Assembly (NCBI GenBank): GCA_016930835.1
Contig: JAFGGA010000038.1
Span: 1 to 43,993 of the forward strand
From: Deltaproteobacteria bacterium
Lineage (GTDB): Bacteria; Desulfobacterota; DSM-4660; Desulfatiglandales; HGW-15
DNA length: 43,993 nt
Direction of reading: 5' to 3'
Shown here in pieces: positions 7,900-38,726 of the stretch. A program made the translations under genes and the position numbers. The notes under the pieces are model-generated. The model did not search any database, had not been told where the DNA came from, and saw nothing but the letters and a program-made list of their open reading frames with translations. Every line of letters starts with the position of its first letter. Position 1 is the first letter of the stretch.

Positions 7900-8058
7900 G
7901 ATTAATAGGTTACTGTTTTTCGATAACGTTCATAAGGGGTTTCATCTCGGGTTTCTCCTTGTCGATTGAGAAAGAGATCCCCCCTGAAAACCCTTTCTGG
8001 ACAGCCGTTTTCAGATCCGTTAATCCAAAAATACGTCATAGAAGAAGGAGGAAATAAC

Positions 8059-8241
8059 ATGGCAAATGAGATAGATGATAAAGAAATATTGACCATTGAG
8101 GAGGCGGCCGAATATCTATCATTGGGAAAGCGAAGTATCTATAAGCTTATCAAGGAAAAAAAGATCCCCTTTAAAAAGATCCTCAACAAGTTCCGCTTCG
8201 TTAGAAAGGATCTGAAAGATTGGGTGAGTGATAATAAGTAG
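8059..8241 (+). CDS. Small helix-turn-helix (MerR/excisionase-type) DNA-binding protein
   Basis: This 60-residue protein has the compact helix-turn-helix of the excisionase/DUF helix-turn-helix family: LTIEEAAEYLSLGKRSIYKL, then a wing with IPFKKILNKFRF and a terminal RKDLKDWV. The ATG at 8059 is chosen because it follows GAAGGAGGAAATAAC, a very good ribosome-binding site; the frame is open upstream to 7966. No integrase or phage gene lies nearby, so an excisionase role is unlikely. It ends 57 bases before the large cytochrome gene on the same strand and may regulate it or the gene for itself; that is inference from position only. Confidence 0.85.
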   Translation: MANEIDDKEILTIEEAAEYLSLGKRSIYKLIKEKKIPFKKILNKFRFVRKDLKDWVSDNK

Positions 8242-8298: not shown

Positions 8299-10485
8299 AT
8301 GATCGCTCGTCTTTTCCCGCGTAAGATCCTTTATTTTACACTCACACTGGTCATTATTCTTACCGGTATGCTGATCCCATTCGCGGAGGCCACAGACCAA
8401 TATGCCGAAAGGACCGGTAAAGGATGCATCTTCTGCCATAGGGAGAGTGCCGGCGGACAACTCAAAACCACGGGCTTTGCCTTTATCAAAAACGGCTACC
8501 AGTATCCCATTCCCGAAAGGATATTGATAAAGGCTGAATCGCTTCAGAGCCCTTTTCACAAGGTGATTCGCTTTGTGTTCGGGTATCTTCATCTTATCGC
8601 CGCGGTGATTTTCGCCGGAACGATCTTTTACATCCATATTTTTATCGGCCCTCGACAACTCAAAAGCGGCATACCCAAAGGGGAGCGCATATTAGGGGTC
8701 TCATGCATGGCTGTTCTCACCGTAACCGGGGGTTATCTAACCTGGGTGCGGATCGAAAGGTGGGAGCAATTTTTTAACCATTCATTTGGCCTGATGCTTT
8801 TCATCAAGATCATGCTCTTCCTCATCATGGTCGGAATCGGTCTGACCGCGATTACCATTATGAATTCGCGGATGAGGAAGGAATCATCCGCTGTTTCTTC
8901 GGGTCATCCCGAAGAGATTACCCCGGACAACCTGGAGCAATTCAACGGGACATCGGGGAAAGCGGCCTATATTGTCGTTGAAAACAAGGTCTATGATGTG
9001 AGCGAGAGCGCGAAATGGAAAGAAGGCAGGCATTTCGGGAAACATCAAGCGGGTTCGGATCTGACATCCAGACTGAAGGGCGCGCCACATGGGCCGGAAG
9101 TCTTGGAGAAGGTTCCTCAAGTTGGAGAGATTTCACGGGCAAAAGCAAAAACCAGCGGCCTCCATCCGGGTCAACGTCTTTTCATCAAGATGGCCTATAT
9201 CAATCTGGTCATCATTTTTTTGATCTTGGCCTGTATCAGCATATGGCGATGGGATTTTCCGTGGCCGATCCTTCCGGAAAGGCGGGCGGAGGTCTCGGCC
9301 GGGGCAGGATGCATTCAGTGTCATCAAGAAAAAAGTCCGGGAATTTTTCATGATTGGCAAGAAAGTGTTCACGCAAGATTGGGGATCGATTGTCTTAAGT
9401 GCCATCAGGAAGAGGATGAGGACCTATCCAGCCAATCCCATCTAAAATATGATCCTGTGCGGGTGGCGGTTGTGGTTACGCCCAAGACCTGCGCCGGTTG
9501 CCATCCAAAGGAAGCGGATCAGTATTCCAGAAGCAAACACGCCCACACCTGGGAGATCATGTGGAAAATAGATTATTGGCTCAATCATGATATGAACAAC
9601 CAGGTTGAAAGGACAACGGGCTGTTATGCCTGCCACGGGAGCGTTGTGGAGGTATCCGAGGGAAGTCCTTTGCCGGGATCGTGGCCGAATGTGGGCGTGG
9701 GGAGAAGGAATCCCGATGGGACCTCGGGCAGTTGCAGCAGTTGTCACACCCGTCACCGGTTTTCAGTCATGGAAGCACGAAAACCCGAGGCCTGTGATCA
9801 ATGCCATCTTGGGCCGGATCATCCCCAGATTGAGATCTATAATGAGTCCAAGCACGGGACCATTTACCATGCCGAAGGGGATACTTGGAATTGGGAAACA
9901 GATGACGGCCCTTGGAAGGCGGGGAGGGATTTTCGCGCACCGACATGCGCCGCCTGTCATATGTCCGCCGCTGAGGATGTCCCGGGGACCCATGATGTCA
10001 CAGAAAGGCTCTCATGGGAAACCCAGGCCCCTCTGACCGTTCGGCCTGAAGCATTCGCGCCTTTTCCCGCGGATACGGATTGGCGGGTGGAGAGGCAGAA
10101 GATGAAAAGGGTCTGTTCGCAATGCCACTCCGACCGGTGGACGGACGATCATTTCAAGAATCTGGATGACGTGGTCCAAAACTATAATGAACTCTACTAT
10201 CAGCCGGCTAAGACAATAATAGACAGTTTATATGGTGAAAAATTGCTTTCCAGGACCCGATACTTTGATGAACCGCTTGAATGGGAGTTTTACGAGCTTT
10301 GGCATCACGAAGGCAGGAGGGCTCGAATGGGCGCGGCCATGATGGCCCCTGATTACGCCTGGTGGCATGGATTTTATGAACTCAAGCATCGATTCGCGGA
10401 GATTCAAAAAGGATCCGAATCATTGAGAAAAAGAGGACCGTTTGAGGATCGTTATTCCATTCCCGGAAGGATGAAAAATGAGTAA
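8299..10485 (+). CDS. Membrane multiheme cytochrome: CopD-like domain, cytochrome b5-like domain, HAO-like octaheme domain
   Basis: The 728-residue protein has a signal or first membrane segment (residues 10-30), one CXXCH at 43-47, three membrane helices (about 92-116, 130-150, 163-187) resembling CopD-type domains, then a predicted heme/steroid-binding cytochrome b5-like domain (about 206-277, with [11 protein letters not shown] and [15 protein letters not shown]). Another membrane helix (about 300-317) leads to a C-terminal region with eight CXXCH sites (CIQCH, CLKCH, CAGCH, CYACH, CSSCH, CDQCH, CAACH, CSQCH). Eight canonical sites, none CXXCK, and the late segment [13 protein letters not shown] fit the hydroxylamine oxidoreductase-like octaheme family rather than nitrite or tetrathionate reductases. 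It is probably anchored in the inner membrane with the octaheme part outside. Substrate unknown; nitrogen- or sulfur-compound redox is possible. The cupin gene overlaps its end. Confidence 0.85.
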
Positions 10486-10849
10486 ATTTTTAGAAGCCAT
10501 CAATTTTGATGAGAAATTTTCTAGATTATCTGAGTATTGGAAACCGAAAATCATCGCGCAGATGAATGATTATCATTTCAAGATCACAAAATTGCAGGGT
10601 GAGTTTGTGTGGCATAAGCACGATGATACGGATGAAGTTTTTATCGTTCTGGAAGGTGAGATGTCTATCGCTTTTCAAGAAGGGGCGGTAATATTAAAAC
10701 AGGGCGAGATGTTTGTCGTGCCAAAAGGGTTGGAGCATAAGCCCATTGCCAAGGACGAGTGTAAGGTCATGCTGGTGGAGCCCGCCGGTACCATTAACAC
10801 CGGAGATGCCGGTGGTGAAATGACCGCGGAAGATAATGTATGGATATAG
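10478..10849 (+). CDS. Single-domain cupin protein
   Basis: The 123-residue product is a small cupin_2 protein. Motif 1 is [18 protein letters not shown], giving the H-x-H-x(n)-E metal ligands, and motif 2 is [10 protein letters not shown] with the last His. Its start overlaps the end of the multiheme cytochrome gene by eight bases, so it is translationally coupled and likely functions with or is expressed alongside it. Stand-alone cupins of this size are often metal-binding enzymes or sensors; the sequence does not tell which. No signal peptide is present, so the protein is cytoplasmic. Confidence 0.88.
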
Positions 10850-30168: not shown

Positions 30169-31197
30169 ATGAAAAAGATCGTTGTATTGGCCATTTCTGT
30201 TTGTATCGCCTTGGGAGTCGCTTTTGGTGTGCCTGTGGACAAGGCAACGGCCGCCACCGTTGAACTGAAACTTGCCCATTCCTTTCCCCCCGTGCAGATA
30301 GTCCATAAAGAACTGCTCGTCCCCTGGGCTGAAGAGGTTGCCAAATTGAGTAACGGTGAGTTAAAGATCTCCATCTTCCCCGGCGGTGCCTTGGGAAAAC
30401 CCGGCGATCACTATGACCTGGCGGAAAAAGGGGTCGCGGATATCATCTATATCCTGCAGGATTACACACCGGGCCGTTTCCCGTTAACAGAGGCCTTCGA
30501 GCTTCCCTTTATGATCCGAACCGCGCGTGGCACATCCATAGCCATGTGGAAAACCTATGAAAAATTCCCCGAATTTCAAAAAGAATACGGCAAGGTCAAG
30601 GTCCTGGGTCTGTTTTGTCATGATCCCGGGCATTTTAACACGGTCAAGAAACCCATAAAGATGCTTGATGATCTGAAAGGCATGAAATTCCGTACTGCCA
30701 GCCCGCCGGTCACCGAGGCATTGAAGATCTTTGGCGCGGTTCCGGTCAGCATGCCCGTCCCCGAGGTCTTTAACGCCCTTGATAGAGGCGTTATTGATGG
30801 TACGGTGTTGCCCTGGGAGGGTAATATCGCCTTTAGAGCGGCCGAGCCGCTGAATTATGGGACTGAGGTGGATTTTTACACCATGACCATGATGGTGGTC
30901 ATGAATCAAAGGAAATATGATTCCCTTCCGGCAAACCTCAAGAAGATTATTGATGACACCACCGGTATGCTGATGTCCGAAAAGGGCGGCCGGATATATG
31001 ATGATTCAAGGGAATTCTATAAGGGCTTGTGTCTTAAAGCGGGAATGGAGGCCATTCAACTCCCGGCCTCCGAGAGGGCCAAATTAAGAGAGCTGACCCT
31101 GCCTGTCAGAGATCAGTGGGCCCAACAAATGGAGGCCAAAGGGCTTCCCGGAAAGGCCGTCCTGGACTATGTAGCGGGATTGGTCGGGGAAAAATAG
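30169..31197 (+). CDS. dctP: TRAP transporter periplasmic substrate-binding protein, DctP type (1)
   Basis: The 342-residue protein has a Sec signal peptide (MKKIVVLAISVCIALGVAFG, cleavage near AATVELKLAHSF) and the DctP fold landmarks: FPGGALGKPGDHYDLAEKG, LKGMKFRTASPP with the Arg that usually grips the substrate carboxylate, and ALDRGVIDGTVLPWE. TTTAGGAGGGTG gives a good ribosome-binding site. It captures an organic acid in the periplasm for the Q-M membrane pair encoded after it. An intrinsic terminator and a MITE-like element separate it from dctQ, so the binding protein is likely made in excess over the membrane subunits. Confidence 0.94.
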   Translation: MKKIVVLAISVCIALGVAFGVPVDKATAATVELKLAHSFPPVQIVHKELLVPWAEEVAKLSNGELKISIFPGGALGKPGDHYDLAEKGVADIIYILQDYTPGRFPLTEAFELPFMIRTARGTSIAMWKTYEKFPEFQKEYGKVKVLGLFCHDPGHFNTVKKPIKMLDDLKGMKFRTASPPVTEALKIFGAVPVSMPVPEVFNALDRGVIDGTVLPWEGNIAFRAAEPLNYGTEVDFYTMTMMVVMNQRKYDSLPANLKKIIDDTTGMLMSEKGGRIYDDSREFYKGLCLKAGMEAIQLPASERAKLRELTLPVRDQWAQQMEAKGLPGKAVLDYVAGLVGEK

Positions 31198-31232
31198 TCT
31201 TCCAAAACAGGTGGTTTGATACGATTGAAGGC

Positions 31233-31264
31233 GGGCAATTCAAAAAGAATTGCCCCCCTTTTGT
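31233..31264 (+). terminator. Intrinsic terminator after first dctP
   Basis: GGGCAATTC and GAATTGCCC form a nine-pair stem around AAAAA, followed by CCCTTTTGTT. It lies 35 bases after the dctP stop and before dctQ, suggesting partial termination inside the operon. Confidence 0.8.
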
Positions 31265-31274
31265 TATCTATTTT

Positions 31275-31467
31275 CGTCAATCTCGCAAAAAGTCGTCACA
31301 CAGGTCCCGTATCCAATTCGGGATAAACCTCGGCAGGGGTCCAGAAAGAAACCATGCAGCTACCTGAAAAGACTGGATTCTCCGGCCTTCACCGGTCTGC
31401 GTGCGGACACGCACGGGCAGGCCGGAATGACAAAGGTGGGTGTTTTACGACTTTTTACGAAGCCGTC
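31275..31467 (-). repeat. MITE-like element, copy 2, inside TRAP operon
   Basis: The ends are CGTCAATCTCGCAAAAAGTCG on the left (first 20 bases from 31275) and CGACTTTTTACGAAGCCGTC on the right. Read in reverse it aligns along its length with 13437-13622, including TTGTCATTCCGGCCTGCC, CGTGTCCGCACGCAGA, TTTTCAGGTAG and GGATACGGGACC. It separates dctP from dctQ by most of the 305-base gap. No clear target duplication was found. Confidence 0.8.
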
Positions 31468-31502
31468 ATTTTTTAAGATCAATAAGATAAAGGGGAAGCC
31501 GT

Positions 31503-32006
31503 ATGACCCTGAAAGCGATCGTTGACAAAATGGGGCGCCCCAGTTCTTTATTATCCTATATCGGCGCCGTGGCCCTTTTTTTGATGATGTCCATCACCAC
31601 TGTGGATGTGGTGGGTCGATATCTTTTTAATGCCCCTATTTTGGGTGTATACGAGATGACGGAATATCTGGTTCTGCTTCTTATTTTTTCATTCCTGGCC
31701 GTCACGCAATCCTCAAAATCTCACATCACGGTGGACATTGTCGCCTCATTCCTGCCCAGGAAATTCCAGATCTATATGGAGATGTTCACCCATCTTTTAT
31801 GCTTTCTATTGATGTGTCTGATTGCATGGATGGGGTTTGAAAAGGCATTGGATTTGATGGCGACCAAAGACACCCCGCCGAACCTGGGGATTCCCATGTA
31901 TCCATTTGCGTTCTTTCTCGTGTTGGGTTGCATATTGATGTGCATCGAGTATCTGAGAGATCTGCTTCAATTGATCATCCAAAGAAAGGAGCTTAGCGGC
32001 TCATGA
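31503..32006 (+). CDS. dctQ: TRAP transporter small membrane subunit, DctQ type (1)
   Basis: The 167-residue protein has four membrane helices and the DctQ pattern TTVDVVGRYLFNAPILGVYEMTEYLVLLLIF, followed by AVTQSSKSHITVDIV. ATG 31503 follows AAAGGGGAAGCCGT. It overlaps the DctM gene by four bases. DctQ sits in the inner membrane and scaffolds the elevator-type DctM subunit for the binding protein. The MITE and terminator upstream mean its expression depends on read-through from dctP or a promoter not recognised here. Confidence 0.92.
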   Translation: MTLKAIVDKMGRPSSLLSYIGAVALFLMMSITTVDVVGRYLFNAPILGVYEMTEYLVLLLIFSFLAVTQSSKSHITVDIVASFLPRKFQIYMEMFTHLLCFLLMCLIAWMGFEKALDLMATKDTPPNLGIPMYPFAFFLVLGCILMCIEYLRDLLQLIIQRKELSGS

Positions 32007-33301
32007 GTTCTGAAATGATCGGCATCCTGGGCATTGTGGTTCTCTTTGCCTTATTGGCCATGAGAATGTATATCGGCATGGCCATGGCCTTGGTGGGATT
32101 TCTAGGGTTAAGCTATATGGTGGGCATCCCGGCAGGATCCAGTATCCTGGGGATCACACCCCTAGCGGAGGGAAAATCCTATACCCTGAGCGTGATTCCC
32201 CTTTTTGTGCTCTTCGGACAGTTTACACTCATTGCCGGTATCAGTACGGACCTTTATAAAGCTGGTTATGCTTGGATTGGTCATTCTCGGGGGGGACTTG
32301 CCATGGCTACCATCGTGGCATGCGGTCTTTTTGCAGCAGTATGTGGCTCATCGCTTGCAACCGGGGCGACCATGGGCATGGTGGCCATCCCTGAGATGAA
32401 AAAATATAAATATGATCCGCGGCTATCCACGGGCTGTGTGGCCGCCGGGGGTACTCTGGGCATCCTGATTCCACCCAGTATTGGTTTCGTTCTCTATGGT
32501 ATCCTGACCGAGCAATCCATCGGCAAACTCTTCTTTGCAGGAATTCTCCCAGGTATTTTACTGGGCGGGTTATTTATCTTAGCTATCTATATACAATGCA
32601 AAATGAATCCGACCATGGGACCACGCGGAGAGGCCGTCCCTTTAAAGATGAAAGTGAAGGCCCTTGGTGGCATTTGGGGGATGTTGCTGTTGTTTGCTAT
32701 CGTGATGGGCGGGATCTATGCCGGCATATTCACCCCCACGGAAGCGGCCGGTATCGGAGCATTCGGGGCCTTCCTGTTTGCATTGTTTAAGCGAAAATTG
32801 ACCTTTAAAAGTACTATTCAGGCACTTATAGAAACCGGCAAGATGACGGCCTTTATCTTTTTGATCATTATCGGGGCCAATATATTTTCCTCTTTTTTGG
32901 GTTTGGCCAAGATCCCCATGGGATTGGCGGATTTGATGGCCAACCTTCCACTGAATCGGAACATCATCCTCATTTTTATTATCCTGATTTATATCATCCT
33001 CGGCTGCGTGATGGACTGTTACGCCATCATGATCCTGACGGTACCCATCCTTTTCCCGGTCATCCAGGCTTTGGGGTTTGATCCTATCTGGTTCGGCGTC
33101 TTGATGGTCATTGTTCTGGAGGTGGGTCTCATCACTCCTCCTGTAGGGCTAAACGTATTTGTTTTAAAAGGATCAGCCCCGGAGGTTCCTTTAACCACCA
33201 TTTTCCGGGGCATTTGGCCGTTTTTGATCGCTGCCTTGATATGCATCGTCATCATAACGATTTTCCCGAATATCGCCCTTTTTCTGCCATCTCTCATGTG
33301 A
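32003..33301 (+). CDS. dctM: TRAP transporter large permease, DctM type (1)
   Basis: The 432-residue, roughly twelve-helix protein has DctM hallmarks: ATIVACGLFAAVCGSSLATGATMG, AAGGTLGILIPPSIGFVLYGILTEQSIGKLFFAGILPG, and GVITPPVG-like EVGLITPPVGLNVFVLKG near the end. The two G-x-L-x-P-P-S/V-type motifs belong to the Na-coupled transport domain. It is translationally coupled to dctQ by a four-base overlap. Substrate cannot be told from the permease; the linked AcnX genes suggest a hydroxy or unsaturated carboxylic acid. Confidence 0.94.
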   Translation: MSSEMIGILGIVVLFALLAMRMYIGMAMALVGFLGLSYMVGIPAGSSILGITPLAEGKSYTLSVIPLFVLFGQFTLIAGISTDLYKAGYAWIGHSRGGLAMATIVACGLFAAVCGSSLATGATMGMVAIPEMKKYKYDPRLSTGCVAAGGTLGILIPPSIGFVLYGILTEQSIGKLFFAGILPGILLGGLFILAIYIQCKMNPTMGPRGEAVPLKMKVKALGGIWGMLLLFAIVMGGIYAGIFTPTEAAGIGAFGAFLFALFKRKLTFKSTIQALIETGKMTAFIFLIIIGANIFSSFLGLAKIPMGLADLMANLPLNRNIILIFIILIYIILGCVMDCYAIMILTVPILFPVIQALGFDPIWFGVLMVIVLEVGLITPPVGLNVFVLKGSAPEVPLTTIFRGIWPFLIAALICIVIITIFPNIALFLPSLM

Positions 33302-33368
33302 TCGCCGGATAAAGGCGGTTTTCGGGCTGCGTGGGATTGATTATATAGATTATCATTCCAGGGAATCC

Positions 33369-33393
33369 TTGACATCTCGTCACATTGTATACT
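33369..33393 (+). promoter_or_regulatory. Candidate regulatory site upstream of second dctP
   Basis: TTGACA (33369-33374) is followed by ACATTGTATACT (33382-33393), whose reverse complement AGTATACAATGT shares the nine bases ATACAATGT with operator site 2 at 29744. A possible -10 (TATACT) is too close to the -35 for a standard promoter, so the site is listed mainly as a candidate regulator-binding sequence. Confidence 0.3.
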
Positions 33394-33504
33394 AAAAAGT
33401 TAAAAGGAGAGGAGGTGAGGGCGCTACCCATCTTATAATAAAATCTTTTCAATGGAATGAATTTTTAATAAATGATCCGCTTCTAAAAAGAAAGGAGAAT
33501 ATCC

Positions 33505-34533
33505 ATGGATAAAAGAACACGATGCGCAGTTTTATTTTTTGGCCTTTTTTTAGCGATCTTTTTAGTGTTTACCGTCACAACCACATCCGCAAAAACCATT
33601 GAACTCAGTTACGCCAATTTTTTCCCACCCACCCATGCAATGTCCATATTACCCGAGACCTGGTGCAGAGAAGTTGAGAAACGCACCAACGGTGCCGTCA
33701 AGATCACGTATTATCCGGGAGGTACGCTGTCTGCCGCGGCCAAGATCATTACTGATGTCATGGACGGTATTGCGGATATCGGAACATCCGTGATCGGTTA
33801 TACACCCGGCATCTTTCCGGCTATGCAGGCCATTGATCTCCCCATGGGTTATCCGGATGCCTATGTCGCCACCAAGGTGATCAATGATTTTTATAACAAA
33901 TATAAATTTCAATCATTTTCAAAGGTAAAGGTCTTTTATCTCTTTGCTCATGGTCCGGGTATTCTACATAGCAAAAAACCCGTGCGTGTCTTAGAGGATC
34001 TTCGAGGTATGAAGATCCGGGCCTACGGCTTCAGCGTGGCTATGGCAGAGGCCTTGGGCGGTGTCCCGGTTGCCATGGGCCAGGGCGGCGCATATGAGGC
34101 GCTCCAAAAAGGCGTTGCGGAAGCCACCATCGCGCCCATGGAGGTCCTGAAAGGCTGGAAACAGGCTGAGGTTATCACTTCAACCACCGAATGTTATGAC
34201 ATCGGCTATACGGCCGGGTTTTTTGTGGTTATGAACCTGGATAAGTGGAACTCCCTGCCCAAAGACGTTCAGAAGGTTATGGAAGACGTCAACAAAGAGT
34301 GGCTCGGTAAATACCCCGATGCATGGGCAAAGGCCGACGAAGAAGGTAGAGAATTTACCCTAAGCAAGGGTAATCAGATTATTCCGCTCTCCGCCGCGGA
34401 GAGTGCCCGTTGGGTAAAGGCCATGACCCCCGTCGTGGATAATTATGCCAAAGAAATCACCGCAAAAGGATTCAAAGGGAAAGAATATGTCGATTTTATT
34501 CGAGCCAAGGTGAAAGAATACAGCAAAAAGTAA
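33505..34533 (+). CDS. dctP: TRAP transporter periplasmic substrate-binding protein, DctP type (2)
   Basis: This second DctP is also 342 residues. A signal peptide covers about residues 1-28 (MDKRTRCAVLFFGLFLAIFL, cleavage near TTSAKT). Landmarks are YYPGGTLSAAAKIITDVMDG, LRGMKIRAYGFSV with the conserved Arg, and ALQKGVAEATIAPMEVLKGW. GAAAGGAGAATATCC is its ribosome-binding site. Its ligand-contact region differs clearly from the first DctP (AYGFSVAMAEALGGVPVAMG versus TASPPVTEALKIFGAVPVSM), so a different acid is likely. A terminator follows its stop, as for the first dctP. Confidence 0.94.
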   Translation: MDKRTRCAVLFFGLFLAIFLVFTVTTTSAKTIELSYANFFPPTHAMSILPETWCREVEKRTNGAVKITYYPGGTLSAAAKIITDVMDGIADIGTSVIGYTPGIFPAMQAIDLPMGYPDAYVATKVINDFYNKYKFQSFSKVKVFYLFAHGPGILHSKKPVRVLEDLRGMKIRAYGFSVAMAEALGGVPVAMGQGGAYEALQKGVAEATIAPMEVLKGWKQAEVITSTTECYDIGYTAGFFVVMNLDKWNSLPKDVQKVMEDVNKEWLGKYPDAWAKADEEGREFTLSKGNQIIPLSAAESARWVKAMTPVVDNYAKEITAKGFKGKEYVDFIRAKVKEYSKK

Positions 34534-34546
34534 GAGATAAATCTTG

Positions 34547-34576
34547 ATGCCCGCCTGCTCGGCGGGCATTTGTTTA
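34547..34576 (+). terminator. Intrinsic terminator after second dctP
   Basis: ATGCCCGCC and GGCGGGCAT form a nine-pair stem around TGCTC, followed by TTGTTT. It lies 13 bases after the dctP stop and before the flavin-reductase and membrane-subunit genes. Confidence 0.8.
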
Positions 34577-34608
34577 CGTTCAACCAAAAAGAAGGAACGA
34601 TATATACG

Positions 34609-35280
34609 GTGTTTTACGAGACCAGAAAGAATGATCATGGATTGGCATACGACCCTTTTAAATCGTGCGTCGTACCTCGCCCCATCGGATGGATATCCAC
34701 CATCAGCGTGAACGGGGTCTCCAATCTGGCACCTTACAGCCAATTCCAGAACCTGACCTATGATCCTCCCTATGTGATGTTTTCCGCCAATCAAAAGACC
34801 GACAGCACCCGAAAGGATACCGTGAATAACGCGGAGCAGGTGGGGGAATTCGTCTATAACATGGCCACATATGAGTTGCGAAATGCCGTCAATATATCGG
34901 CCCAACAAGTTGCCGCCGACGTGGATGAATTTGAATTGGCCGGGGTCACCAAAGAACCTTCAAGATTGGTTAAACCGTTTCGCGTGGCGGAATCCCCCAT
35001 CCAGTTTGAATGTCGCTATCACCAGACTTTGCGGCTCCCGGGGAAAGGGAAAATGGGAACGGTGGACATCATTATCGGGGAGGTCTTGGGCATCCATATA
35101 AAAGATGCTTATATCCTGCCGAACGGCAAGTTGGATATCGTAAAAATCCGGCCATTGGGCCGGCTGGGGTATTATGACTATACGTGTGTGGACTCTGTTT
35201 TTGAGATGACCATTCCGGGGGAGAATGAAGAGGTTCGTATCGGGATGGAAGGGGCCGCCGATAAGAAAGGAAAGACCTAA
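34609..35280 (+). CDS. Flavin reductase-like FMN-binding protein
   Basis: From GTG 34609 the product has 223 residues. It opens MFYETRKNDHGLAYDPFKSC and continues VVPRPIGWISTISVNGVSNLAPYS, the hallmark of the split-barrel flavin reductase-like family. GAAGGA lies 12 bases upstream of the GTG; the frame is open back to 34570 but that part lies in the terminator. The family includes FMN-dependent reductases and flavin-binding proteins of unknown role. Its place between the dctP and dctQ genes of the second TRAP set, and before the AcnX genes, suggests that it acts on the imported compound. The exact reaction is unknown. Confidence 0.88.
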   Translation: MFYETRKNDHGLAYDPFKSCVVPRPIGWISTISVNGVSNLAPYSQFQNLTYDPPYVMFSANQKTDSTRKDTVNNAEQVGEFVYNMATYELRNAVNISAQQVAADVDEFELAGVTKEPSRLVKPFRVAESPIQFECRYHQTLRLPGKGKMGTVDIIIGEVLGIHIKDAYILPNGKLDIVKIRPLGRLGYYDYTCVDSVFEMTIPGENEEVRIGMEGAADKKGKT

Positions 35281-35311
35281 AAAAACCGGCAGAATCAGGA
35301 TAATACATCTC

Positions 35312-35839
35312 ATGAATACCTTTGAAAGAACATCGCGACGATTGGTCGAGGTCATGTATTATATCGCAGGGGCGGCCATCACGGTCATGATGCTGCTGAC
35401 GTGTGCGGATGTCATCTTACGTTTTTGCACCACCCTATATGTCAAGTTCGAGTGGGACGTTATTGCCTCTCTCAGGCCTATACCCGGAACCTACGAGATG
35501 GTCTGCCTTCTGGGTGTGGTGGCTGCGGCCTTTGCTATGGCGCATACCTCTTTACAAGCGGGGCATGTGGCTGTGAACTTCGTGGTCCGCCTCCTTTCGG
35601 AAAAGACCCAGGCCATTTTTGAGATTGTGACGGGCTCCATTGGATTTATCTTTTTTGCCATCGTCTGCTGGCAATCCGTTGAATATGCCTTAAGGGCAAA
35701 GGCGTGGGGAGAGGTATCCATGACACTGCAATTGCCCTATTACCCCTTTATTTTGGGTATTGCCTTGTCCGCTTTTACGGTTTGTCTGGTCCTTTTTTTC
35801 GCGGTTGCCAACGAATGTGCAAAGGTGCTTAAAAAATGA
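35312..35839 (+). CDS. dctQ: TRAP transporter small membrane subunit, DctQ type (2)
   Basis: The 175-residue protein has four membrane helices, with MLLTCADVILRF, GTYEMVCLLGVVAAAFAMAH and QAGHVAVNFVVRLL matching DctQ. A charged loop (CTTLYVKFEWDVIASLRPIP) lengthens the first periplasmic or cytoplasmic loop compared with the first DctQ. ATG 35312 is chosen because the frame upstream overlaps the flavin-reductase gene and lacks family similarity. It overlaps dctM by four bases and works with it in the inner membrane. Confidence 0.9.
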   Translation: MNTFERTSRRLVEVMYYIAGAAITVMMLLTCADVILRFCTTLYVKFEWDVIASLRPIPGTYEMVCLLGVVAAAFAMAHTSLQAGHVAVNFVVRLLSEKTQAIFEIVTGSIGFIFFAIVCWQSVEYALRAKAWGEVSMTLQLPYYPFILGIALSAFTVCLVLFFAVANECAKVLKK

Positions 35840-37137
35840 GCTTAACCACTATTGGTATTTTAGGGATCGTTCTTCTCCTGGTATTGCTTTTTTCCAATAT
35901 GCCCGTCGGTTTCGTGATGGGTGTGGTCGGCTTCCTAGGCTTCAGCTATATCAAGGGTTTTGGACCCGGCCTGACCATTGTCGCCAAGGATATTTTTGAG
36001 GTTTTTTCTTCTTACAGCCTAACGGTTGTCCCGCTTTTCGTGTTCATGGGGCAGTTGTCTTTTTATTCCGGGATCAGTAAGCGATTATATGAATCGGCTC
36101 ATATTCTTTTAGGGAGCCTGAAAGGCGGTTTGGCCATTGCCACGGTAGGGGCATGCGCCGGGTTTTCCGCCATCTCCGGTTCCACCAACGCCACGGCCGC
36201 GACCATGGCGACCGTCACCTTGCCGGAGATGAAGCGATATGGATATGACATGGGTTTGGCCACAGGGACCGTGGCCGCAGCGGGCAGCCTGGGAATCCTG
36301 ATTCCTCCAAGTACGATTTTTATTATCTATGGAATTCTTACGGAGCAATCCATTGGTAAATTATTCGCCGCGGGCATATTTCCTGGTATTCTACTCTCTC
36401 TCCTCTTTATCCTGGTCATTTATATTCGTGTCCGTTTCAATCCGACCTTGGCACCTCCCGGGTCAAAGACCAGTCTTAAAAAGAAATTTAAATCATTCGT
36501 CGGTGTCATTGAAACCCTCATCCTTTTCGGGATGATCATGGGTGGCATCTTTTTTGGGATCTTCACCCCCACCGAAGCGGCCGCCCTTGGGGCCTTTTTT
36601 ACGCTTCTCCTGGCCCTTATTCGAAGACAACTGAGCTGGAAGGATTTTGTTGAATCCCTTGCCGATACGACGCGTATCAGTTGTATGATTATGGTGATTG
36701 TGGCCGGCGCCACCATCTTCGGCCATTTTATGGCTGTTACGCGTGTCCCATTTGAGATCAGCGCATGGGTAGCGGGCCTTCCATTGCCTAGTTGGGCCAT
36801 TATGATCGTGATTATCCTGATCTACCTTTTTGGTGGGTGTTTTATGGACGCCTTGGCCCTGATCATGCTTACCATCCCTATCTTTTTCCCGGTCTCCCAG
36901 GCCCTGGGATTTGATCCCATCTGGTTCGGTGTGGTGATTGTTTTGATCACCGAGATGGGCGTGGTCACGCCGCCCGTGGGCATTAATGTGTATGTGGTGT
37001 CGGGTGTAGCGAAAGAAGTGCCATTGGATGTGATCTTCAAGGGAGTCCTGCCCATGGTGCTGGCGCTTCTTTTCTGCAATCTCGTGATCCTGCTTTTTCC
37101 GCAGATTGCGCTGTATCTACCCAGCTTGATGCGTTAA
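35836..37137 (+). CDS. dctM: TRAP transporter large permease, DctM type (2)
   Basis: The 433-residue multi-helix protein has GACAGFSAISGSTNATAATM, AAAGSLGILIPPSTIFIIYG and ILTEQSIGKLFAAGIFPGIL, plus GVVTPPVGINVYVVSGVAKE near the C-terminus, as in DctM. It is clearly related to the first DctM in the window but not a recent duplicate, since the gene order around it (binding protein, flavin reductase, Q, M) differs. It provides the Na-coupled transport path for the second binding protein. The AcnX genes begin 330 bases downstream. Confidence 0.94.
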   Translation: MSLTTIGILGIVLLLVLLFSNMPVGFVMGVVGFLGFSYIKGFGPGLTIVAKDIFEVFSSYSLTVVPLFVFMGQLSFYSGISKRLYESAHILLGSLKGGLAIATVGACAGFSAISGSTNATAATMATVTLPEMKRYGYDMGLATGTVAAAGSLGILIPPSTIFIIYGILTEQSIGKLFAAGIFPGILLSLLFILVIYIRVRFNPTLAPPGSKTSLKKKFKSFVGVIETLILFGMIMGGIFFGIFTPTEAAALGAFFTLLLALIRRQLSWKDFVESLADTTRISCMIMVIVAGATIFGHFMAVTRVPFEISAWVAGLPLPSWAIMIVIILIYLFGGCFMDALALIMLTIPIFFPVSQALGFDPIWFGVVIVLITEMGVVTPPVGINVYVVSGVAKEVPLDVIFKGVLPMVLALLFCNLVILLFPQIALYLPSLMR

Positions 37138-37467
37138 CCCCTGATTACCAGTATAAGACATCGACTGTCCCCTCCCGGGGTATCATTGCCCTCTCCCCGC
37201 CACGAATATAGGCGGGCAAGCGTCGCTCCTCCTTGCGGTGTGTTATTTATACGCCACACTCGTCACTCTTCGGCGCCTTACATCGAATACCTTATGGGTG
37301 ATCAGGGGTATATTCAAATTAGGGGATGAATTTTGTAGAATTGCTCATTGCGTCCCCGCCCATTTTTTGGTAAATTATTTCTTGCATACCTTAGAATCGA
37401 TTTGTATCTTGACGTAAAAGCTTATCTGTTTTTTCCATCCTGCTGATTATGCATCATTGGAGGTCGA
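37138..37467. other. Intergenic stretch between second TRAP set and AcnX genes
   Basis: No gene was seen. A short GC hairpin CCCCTCCCGGGG lies at about 37170-37181 and a GTGTG/CACAC inverted repeat around 37240-37258. No clear promoter or copy of the candidate operator was found. AcnX translation begins after GGAGGTCGA at 37459-37467. Confidence 0.45.
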
Positions 37468-38726
37468 ATGGAGTTAACCCGAGAACAACAAAGGATGTTG
37501 GAGGGTCGAGATGGTCAAGGTGCCCAAAAAGCCATGGAGATCCTTTTGGCCTATGGGGAATGTTATCATGCAAAGCGGATGATTCCCATCACAAGCGTGC
37601 ACATAGCCGGCAATTTCCCCGTGCTGATGGACGAGGGGATCGAGTGGCTGGAAGATCTGGCCCGGGATGGGACCAGGGTGTATCGGTCTATACCACAAAA
37701 AATCCGGAGATGTATGATTTTGATCAGGCCGATGACATGAATATCCCCATGTATCATCGAGTCAGACAAGGTAAGATTCACGATGTCCTGAAATCCCTGG
37801 GAATCGTATTAACCTATTCCTGCCATCATTATTTGGTGGGGAATGTGCCGCGTTTCGGGGATCATATCGCATGGGCCTCTTCGGGGAGCCAGGTCTTTGC
37901 CAATTCCGTGATCGGCGCCAGGTCCAATCGGGACGGCGATCATGTTGCCTTGGCGGCGGCCATAGTCGGGGCTATCCCCGAATGGGGGTTGCACCTGGAA
38001 GAGAATCGAAAAGGTGAATTGCTGGTTGATGTAAATGCATTACATCATGATGCATACGATCCCGCCGATTACAAGGCCCTCGGCTGGCATTTGGGGAAAA
38101 GGATCGGAGCGGGCATCCCGGTATTTATCAATCTGCCTCCGCACATGCATATCGAGGCCATTAAGGGCTTGTTGTATACCCTTACGGTCACAGGCGCCAT
38201 GGGTTTGGCGCATCTGGTGGGTATCACACCGGAGGCCCCGACCATTGAGGCTGCATTTCTTGGTCGGATACCGCAATCACCGGCCATTACAGTGTCTCAA
38301 AAGGATATTGATAACGCCTATGGAGAGATCTCAAGCGCCAAGGAAGAAAAAGTGGACTTGGTTATATTCGGTTGCCCGCAATGCAGCATGCAGGAGATCC
38401 AGGATGTCGTGCGTATCCTGAATGGCCGAAAAGTTCATCCCGGAACCCAATTTTGGATCTGCACGTCTTCGTGGGTCAAATTATTATGCGAACGCATGGG
38501 ACTGCTGGATATGCTTAGATCCTTAGGGGTTCGAATCGTGGCCGATGTGGGCGCGGCGGACGGCCCGCACCTTTATTTGAGAGAGCAAGGCGTGCGGGTG
38601 ATTGCCATAAACTCCGCAAGAGGGAGTTATTATGCCCATAATCTCTTTGGAATGGAGACATGGTTTGGTTCCACCCGGGAATGCGTGGAGACGGCCCTAT
38701 CAGGAAAATGGGAGGGAAAGAAATAA
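37468..38726 (+). pseudogene. AcnX-type dehydratase large subunit gene, frameshifted
   Basis: The reading frame from ATG 37468 encodes a normal AcnX N-terminus (MELTREQQRMLEG, MIPITSVHIAGNFPVLMDEG, EWLEDLARDGTRV) up to about 37680. The rest of the family sequence (VSVYTTKNPEMYDFDQAD onward to the stop at 38726) is in another frame, entered by losing one base in or beside the GGG at 37676-37678. Restored, the product is about 419 residues, a normal length. Likely Fe-S ligands are the Cys residues in YSCHHYLVGN, FGCPQCSMQE and ICTSSWVKL. Characterised AcnX enzymes dehydrate cis-3-hydroxy-L-proline or mevalonate 5-phosphate. The break may be a real mutation or a sequencing error, as both halves look well conserved. 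Confidence 0.85.

Follow-up and report, generated by a model that had tools for sequence, protein, structure and literature searches.

The locus described here raises the question of how an octaheme cytochrome of the hydroxylamine oxidoreductase (HAO) family exchanges electrons with the cell when it is fused, within a single polypeptide, to a membrane module consisting of a CopD-like helical bundle and a cytochrome b5 domain. Periplasmic multiheme reductases are believed to rely on a few types of donor, chiefly proteins of the NapC/NrfH family. The fused protein, encoded in the window (the whole 43,993-nucleotide stretch of DNA analyzed), is in our preferred reading, to which we assign a probability of roughly 0.45, a membrane-anchored HAO-family octaheme reductase that carries its donor in the same chain, a single-chain version of the reverse hydroxylamine:quinone module (reverse-HURM).

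The gene (8299-10485, forward strand) begins with an ATG that an AGG precedes by about 5 nt, encodes 728 amino acids and is supported by both its open reading frame and co-linear homologues. The chain opens with a signal peptide (residues 1-31, 8299-8391; helix 8-25 in the model) ending in an AxA-type site (FAEA) that is retained in most homologues, followed by one CXXCH (CIFCH, residues 43-47, 8425-8439), predicted to carry a periplasmic c-heme, a CopD-like bundle of three helices, the cytochrome b5 domain (208-278, 8920-9132), one further helix, and the octaheme domain (334-712, 9298-10434), which is predicted to be periplasmic and was delimited by Pfam, structure matches and alignment. The domain calls of the first-pass annotation hold by Pfam, with all three matches above curated cut-offs, namely CopD PF05425 at 132-194 (E 1.5e-11), Cyt-b5 PF00173 at 208-278 (E 2e-6) and Multi-haem_cyto PF13447 at 477-651 (E 9e-33), and by matches to solved structures; Pfam C7 is matched as well. 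That annotation had also spoken of a nine-heme fusion. Nine CXXCH motifs are indeed present, at residues 43, 338, 365, 398, 442, 479, 499, 550 and 606, and the scanned sequence contains no CXXCK; the predicted hemes, however, number ten once the b5 heme is counted, and an extra heme b within the membrane bundle is possible.

The fused order is a conserved one. Scans of one collection and of 148 related genomes yielded 20 full-length fused genes including that of the window, and several more that end at contig edges; the homologues are 46-67% identical to the window protein, with one deviant (L062) at 30%. An assembly chimera or a chance joining is excluded by full-length, co-linear homologues without frameshift in many other assemblies. 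A match across the junction from b5 through the fourth helix into the octaheme was obtained in 11 of 395 genomes of a broad phylum sample, and the stand-alone module in 3 more. Named carriers are mostly Desulfobacterota metagenome genomes, with one filed as Spirochaetes. Two archaeal contigs labelled Euryarchaeota (L028, L029) encode octahemes 41-42% identical to that of the window, with no tetraheme gene seen on the contig.

The topology of the chain can be read from the helices that separate its heme-binding parts. AlphaFold, run on family alignments, places exactly three confident helices after the N-terminal CXXCH and ahead of the b5 domain, at residues 85-116 (8551-8646), 127-151 (8677-8751, within which the CopD match begins) and 162-199 (8782-8895), and a single one, at 290-317 (9166-9249), in the stretch leading from b5 to the octaheme; hydropathy agrees with these positions. 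The periplasm is the only compartment in which heme c becomes attached. With c-heme parts on both sides of it, three helices before and one after, the b5 domain must face the cytoplasm, and the Lys/Arg-rich loops on the presumed inner side fit this placement. We therefore strongly infer a cytoplasmic b5 domain flanked by two periplasmic c-heme parts, an arrangement that only a missed or a false helix would overturn and that agrees with the earlier proposal of a cytoplasmic b5 preceded by three or four helices.

The b5 assignment itself is supported by a sequence search, in which this part retrieves 6vz6 and 6nzx, both structures of b5 domains, with E ~1e-15, and by superposition of the modelled domain on both (TM-score 0.89, rmsd 1.3-1.5 Å), so that the b5-like region belongs to the b5 family by profile, fold and conserved histidines alike. 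The N-terminal CXXCH, His98 and His113 of helix 1, Lys170 of helix 3, and His245, His249 and His264 of b5 are invariant in 31/31 CopD-b5 modules, the b5 histidines even at about 30% identity. All 17 fused modules scanned match PF05425, with E values of up to 1. The fold of the bundle is less readily placed, the search against the PDB giving confident matches to b5 and none for the membrane bundle; the invariant His98, His113 and Lys170 suggest, from sequence conservation, a cofactor within it, perhaps heme b. His and Lys ligands of this kind would resemble those of a HemJ-like membrane heme b protein. Kinship with HemJ (PF03653) is a tentative lead: relatives give sub-threshold matches only, and UPF0093/HemJ is absent among the 25 listed Pfam matches for the module. 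No copper genes were present among the neighbours examined, and no CopD-domain protein other than the fused one was found in the window's genome.

The module and the octaheme have been joined at least three times independently. In a tree built for the octaheme clade, a single group (97/93) unites the main fused proteins. The fused octaheme of L036 stands apart from it and groups with its own unfused, NapC/NrfH-paired neighbour (100/100), to which it is 77% identical, and a single fused clade is rejected by the AU test (p 1e-19). A third joining is seen in L062, whose octaheme shares only 25% identity with that of the window but 75% with the octaheme that L057 encodes separately; in L057, a CopD-b5 gene, its product 52% identical to that of L062, lies directly upstream of this octaheme, and in L053 the CopD-b5 and octaheme genes are likewise neighbours. 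Long branches render the deep octaheme root unreliable, and a smaller tree without them was used. Together, the three joinings and the two operons provide strong evidence that CopD-b5 and HAO-like octahemes function together.

Several other arrangements of these parts were observed. The operons in L053 (6209-8450) and L057 (4417-6615) combine a stand-alone CopD-b5 with a shorter, distant octaheme family (415 aa), and the CopD-b5 and shorter octaheme genes of L061 (272-2655) are convergent. An octaheme inside the fused clade (L022:4469-5785) is without the N-terminal module and retains roughly the segment of the fourth helix, which probably reflects secondary loss of the N-terminal part. Stand-alone CopD-b5 modules without an adjacent octaheme occur in L055, L056 and L059.

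Which partner the module replaces becomes apparent from the unfused relatives. The closest of these, about 60% identical to the window's octaheme, are without the N-terminal part, and the gene upstream of them encodes a protein of about 190 aa with four CXXCH motifs, whose matches to NapC/NirT (PF03264) have E values of 1e-31 to 1e-38. In a survey of relatives, PF03264 was detected in 27 of the 28 genomes with an unfused octaheme of about 60% identity, whereas no such protein was found in seven of eight fusion-bearing genomes examined, among them the window's own, which is 95.5% complete and thus shows no NapC/NrfH donor encoded with an octaheme, the hallmark of a HURM; all six genomes with a main-type fusion are without it (Fisher p 6e-6 for fusion versus unfused carriers, kinship ignored). 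As PF03264 scores above cut-off in 71 of 148 relatives, six absences alone are no more than mildly surprising (0.52^6 = 0.02). Genome context thus establishes a partner swap from NapC/NrfH to CopD-b5, and the first-pass view that a built-in membrane module takes the place of the usual partner is borne out. The replacement is not strict, since in L019, L025 and L036 the fused gene adjoins a pair of NapC/NrfH and unfused octaheme genes. Fused, NapC/NrfH and unfused octaheme genes lie side by side in L019 (2-3749), L025 (5986-10378) and L054 (7755-12030), an arrangement suggesting that their products form a mixed complex or that a single octaheme pool is fed by two inputs.

The octaheme domain belongs, by its eight c-heme motifs and HAO-like sequence, to the HAO/octaheme cytochrome c superfamily, and its kinship is with the HAO family rather than with unrelated heme proteins: beyond the PF13447 match, a sequence search retrieved the HAO-family structures 4qo5 (E 2e-40) and 1fgj, an HAO (E 2e-28). 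Its eight sites (338-610) are all CXXCH, as had been noted, so that the CXXCK catalytic heme characteristic of octaheme nitrite reductase (ONR) is absent. The CXXCH of heme 4 (442-446, 9622-9636), the presumed active site, aligns with the P460 heme site of HAO, and Asp507-His508 (9817-9822), invariant in the fused family, align with the distal-pocket pair Asp267-His268 of Nitrosomonas HAO. The hallmark of oxidative HAO (hydroxylamine dehydrogenase), the cross-linking Tyr467 of P460, is missing; alignment places Trp688-Trp689 (10360-10365) there, and a Trp stands at this position in every main-type fused sequence. Judged by its residues, the domain is therefore not a canonical HAO. The cross-linking Tyr has been reported to tell oxidative from reductive forms, most non-anammox bacteria being placed on the reductive side (PMC12758564). 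In the full-chain AlphaFold model the octaheme is weak and of low confidence, hemes being absent from the model and the alignment shallow.

The genomic setting offers a further, broader context. Hcp, the hybrid cluster protein, is encoded in 6 of 8 fusion genomes, with two full copies in the window's genome; NrfA above cut-off was found in none of the eight, nor NapA above cut-off in the fusion genomes, and with NapA missing a source of nitrite is not evident. Gene-neighbourhood clustering of the homologues revealed no widely shared neighbour and no conserved one tying the gene to nitrogen metabolism; neighbours vary by genome and include arsenic permease, MmgE/PrpD and glutamine cyclotransferase. 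In the window, a cupin-domain gene (10478-10849, forward strand; ORF list, Pfam) shares 8 bases with the 3' end of the fused gene and is, given this overlap, probably co-translated with it, and no cupin gene was found beside homologues. A small excisionase/HTH_17-like gene lies just upstream of the fused gene (7966-8241), and at 30169-38726 lie genes for a TRAP transporter (DctP, DctM), with what gene lengths suggest is a second tandem set, and then an aconitase X gene. The window's genome also encodes DsrAB and two further octahemes (G000 contig C61:570-1865; C23, L052:7690-9189), both unfused and with no CopD-b5 gene beside them.

The reading of the fused protein as a one-chain reverse-HURM follows from the Trp in place of the cross-linking Tyr, the retained Asp-His pair, the presence of Hcp and the lack of NrfA and NapA. 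Electrons would be taken up by the cytoplasmic b5 domain, drawn from quinol by the CopD-like bundle, or both, and would travel outward, perhaps via a heme b coordinated by some of His98, His113 and Lys170, first to the periplasmic c-heme near the N-terminus and from there along the octaheme wire to heme 4, which would reduce a small nitrogen oxide such as nitrite, NO or hydroxylamine. CopD-b5 would thus do the job of the NapC/NrfH tetraheme of the closest unfused octahemes. The domain order, its conservation and the recurrence of the fusion are directly observed, the reductive direction is something we infer, and the membrane heme, the exact substrate and the exact cytoplasmic donor are speculative; no biochemical study of a close homologue was found in the papers searched. 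A stricter version, in which the chain is a complete transmembrane wire that bypasses the quinone pool and leads from a donor in the cytoplasm, by way of b5 and a membrane heme of CopD type, into the periplasmic octaheme reductase, is less likely than not.

Rather doubtful is the notion of a plain menaquinol-octaheme reductase, whose bundle and N-terminal c-heme would oxidize quinol outside, in the manner of NrfH, leaving b5 as an accessory or regulatory heme off the main path. The module does occupy the place of the NapC/NrfH quinol dehydrogenase of unfused relatives, and its invariant N-terminal c-heme lies on the same side as the octaheme, but three b5 histidines are invariant down to about 30% identity, and the domain is retained in every CopD-b5 module of the sample, which suggests that it is essential.

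It is also conceivable, if unlikely, that the octaheme is an electron conduit or a general periplasmic reductase serving redox balancing or extracellular electron transfer instead of a nitrogen-oxide enzyme. Against such a role, the heme-4 pocket, including Asp507 and His508, is invariant across the fused family, as is expected of an enzyme and not of a wire; the varied, nitrogen-unrelated neighbours and the carriers' lack of NapA and NrfA would suit it, as would the cytoplasm-periplasm shuttling proposed for a probable Desulfatiglandales relative (PMC13343851). An inward flow, with the octaheme oxidizing periplasmic hydroxylamine or a hydrazine-like substrate and b5 delivering the electrons to the cell, would accord with the kinship to HAO and hydrazine dehydrogenase, yet it is very improbable, given that main-type fused proteins have Trp for the Tyr that an oxidative P460 heme needs and that related unfused octahemes are paired with a quinol-oxidizing family. 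That CopD-b5 stands outside electron flow, as a heme, copper or redox sensor or as an assembly factor anchoring the octaheme, is scarcely credible: the bundle is named after a copper-resistance protein and some modules stand alone, but the presumed heme ligands are invariant, and the module has joined one and the same class of enzyme on three occasions and takes the place of an established donor family.

If the preferred reading, a reductase with its donor built in, is true, periplasmic multiheme reductases have a second donor, fused to them on at least three separate occasions and present where NapC/NrfH is mostly absent. The reading of genomes for nitrogen-oxide respiration or detoxification would change accordingly, as carriers score negative for NrfA, NapA and NapC/NrfH, and the CopD family would gain a testable role in electron transfer. 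Were the single-chain wire true, CopD-b5 would represent a new class of portable donor serving multiheme enzymes of the periplasm. The fused chain is a self-contained unit and as such handy for biochemistry, and it may illustrate a further means of driving reactions that take place outside the cell membrane.

Among known systems, NrfHA likewise joins a membrane donor to a periplasmic multiheme reductase. NrfA has five hemes, usually including a CXXCK site, whereas the fused octaheme has eight CXXCH sites, in carriers that encode no NrfA above cut-off. The archaeal b5 proteins 6vz6 (Methanococcoides) and 6nzx (Hadesarchaea) share the short b5 type, fold and His positions but were solved as isolated domains, without membrane or c-heme parts. 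IhOCC of Ignicoccus hospitalis (4qo5), the best solved octaheme relative, similarly has eight c-hemes, a related heme-4 region and no cross-linking Tyr; it differs in having no CopD, b5 or fourth helix, in its identity of about 24% over the modelled chain, and in an Asp-Val where the fused protein has Asp-His. In the papers searched, the only probable mention of the fusion is one sentence on a membrane-spanning protein of Desulfatiglandales clade A with a periplasmic C7 and a cytoplasmic b5 part, suggested to shuttle electrons (PMC13343851; mBio, June 2026). Both proteins combine a periplasmic multiheme part with a cytoplasmic b5 in one chain and, as the window's also matches Pfam C7, they probably belong to the same family, although that protein was not called octaheme, HAO-like or CopD-like and has a Rieske gene beside it, which the window's gene does not. 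The closest functional parallel is the reverse-HURM of Nautilia, composed of the octaheme HaoA, the NapC/NrfH-type cM552 and cytoplasmic Hcp (PMC3701875), which would share with the present system a reductive HAO-type octaheme, a membrane donor and a genome that encodes Hcp; in Nautilia, the donor is a NapC/NrfH tetraheme, whereas in the fused protein it would be the CopD-b5 module of the same chain.
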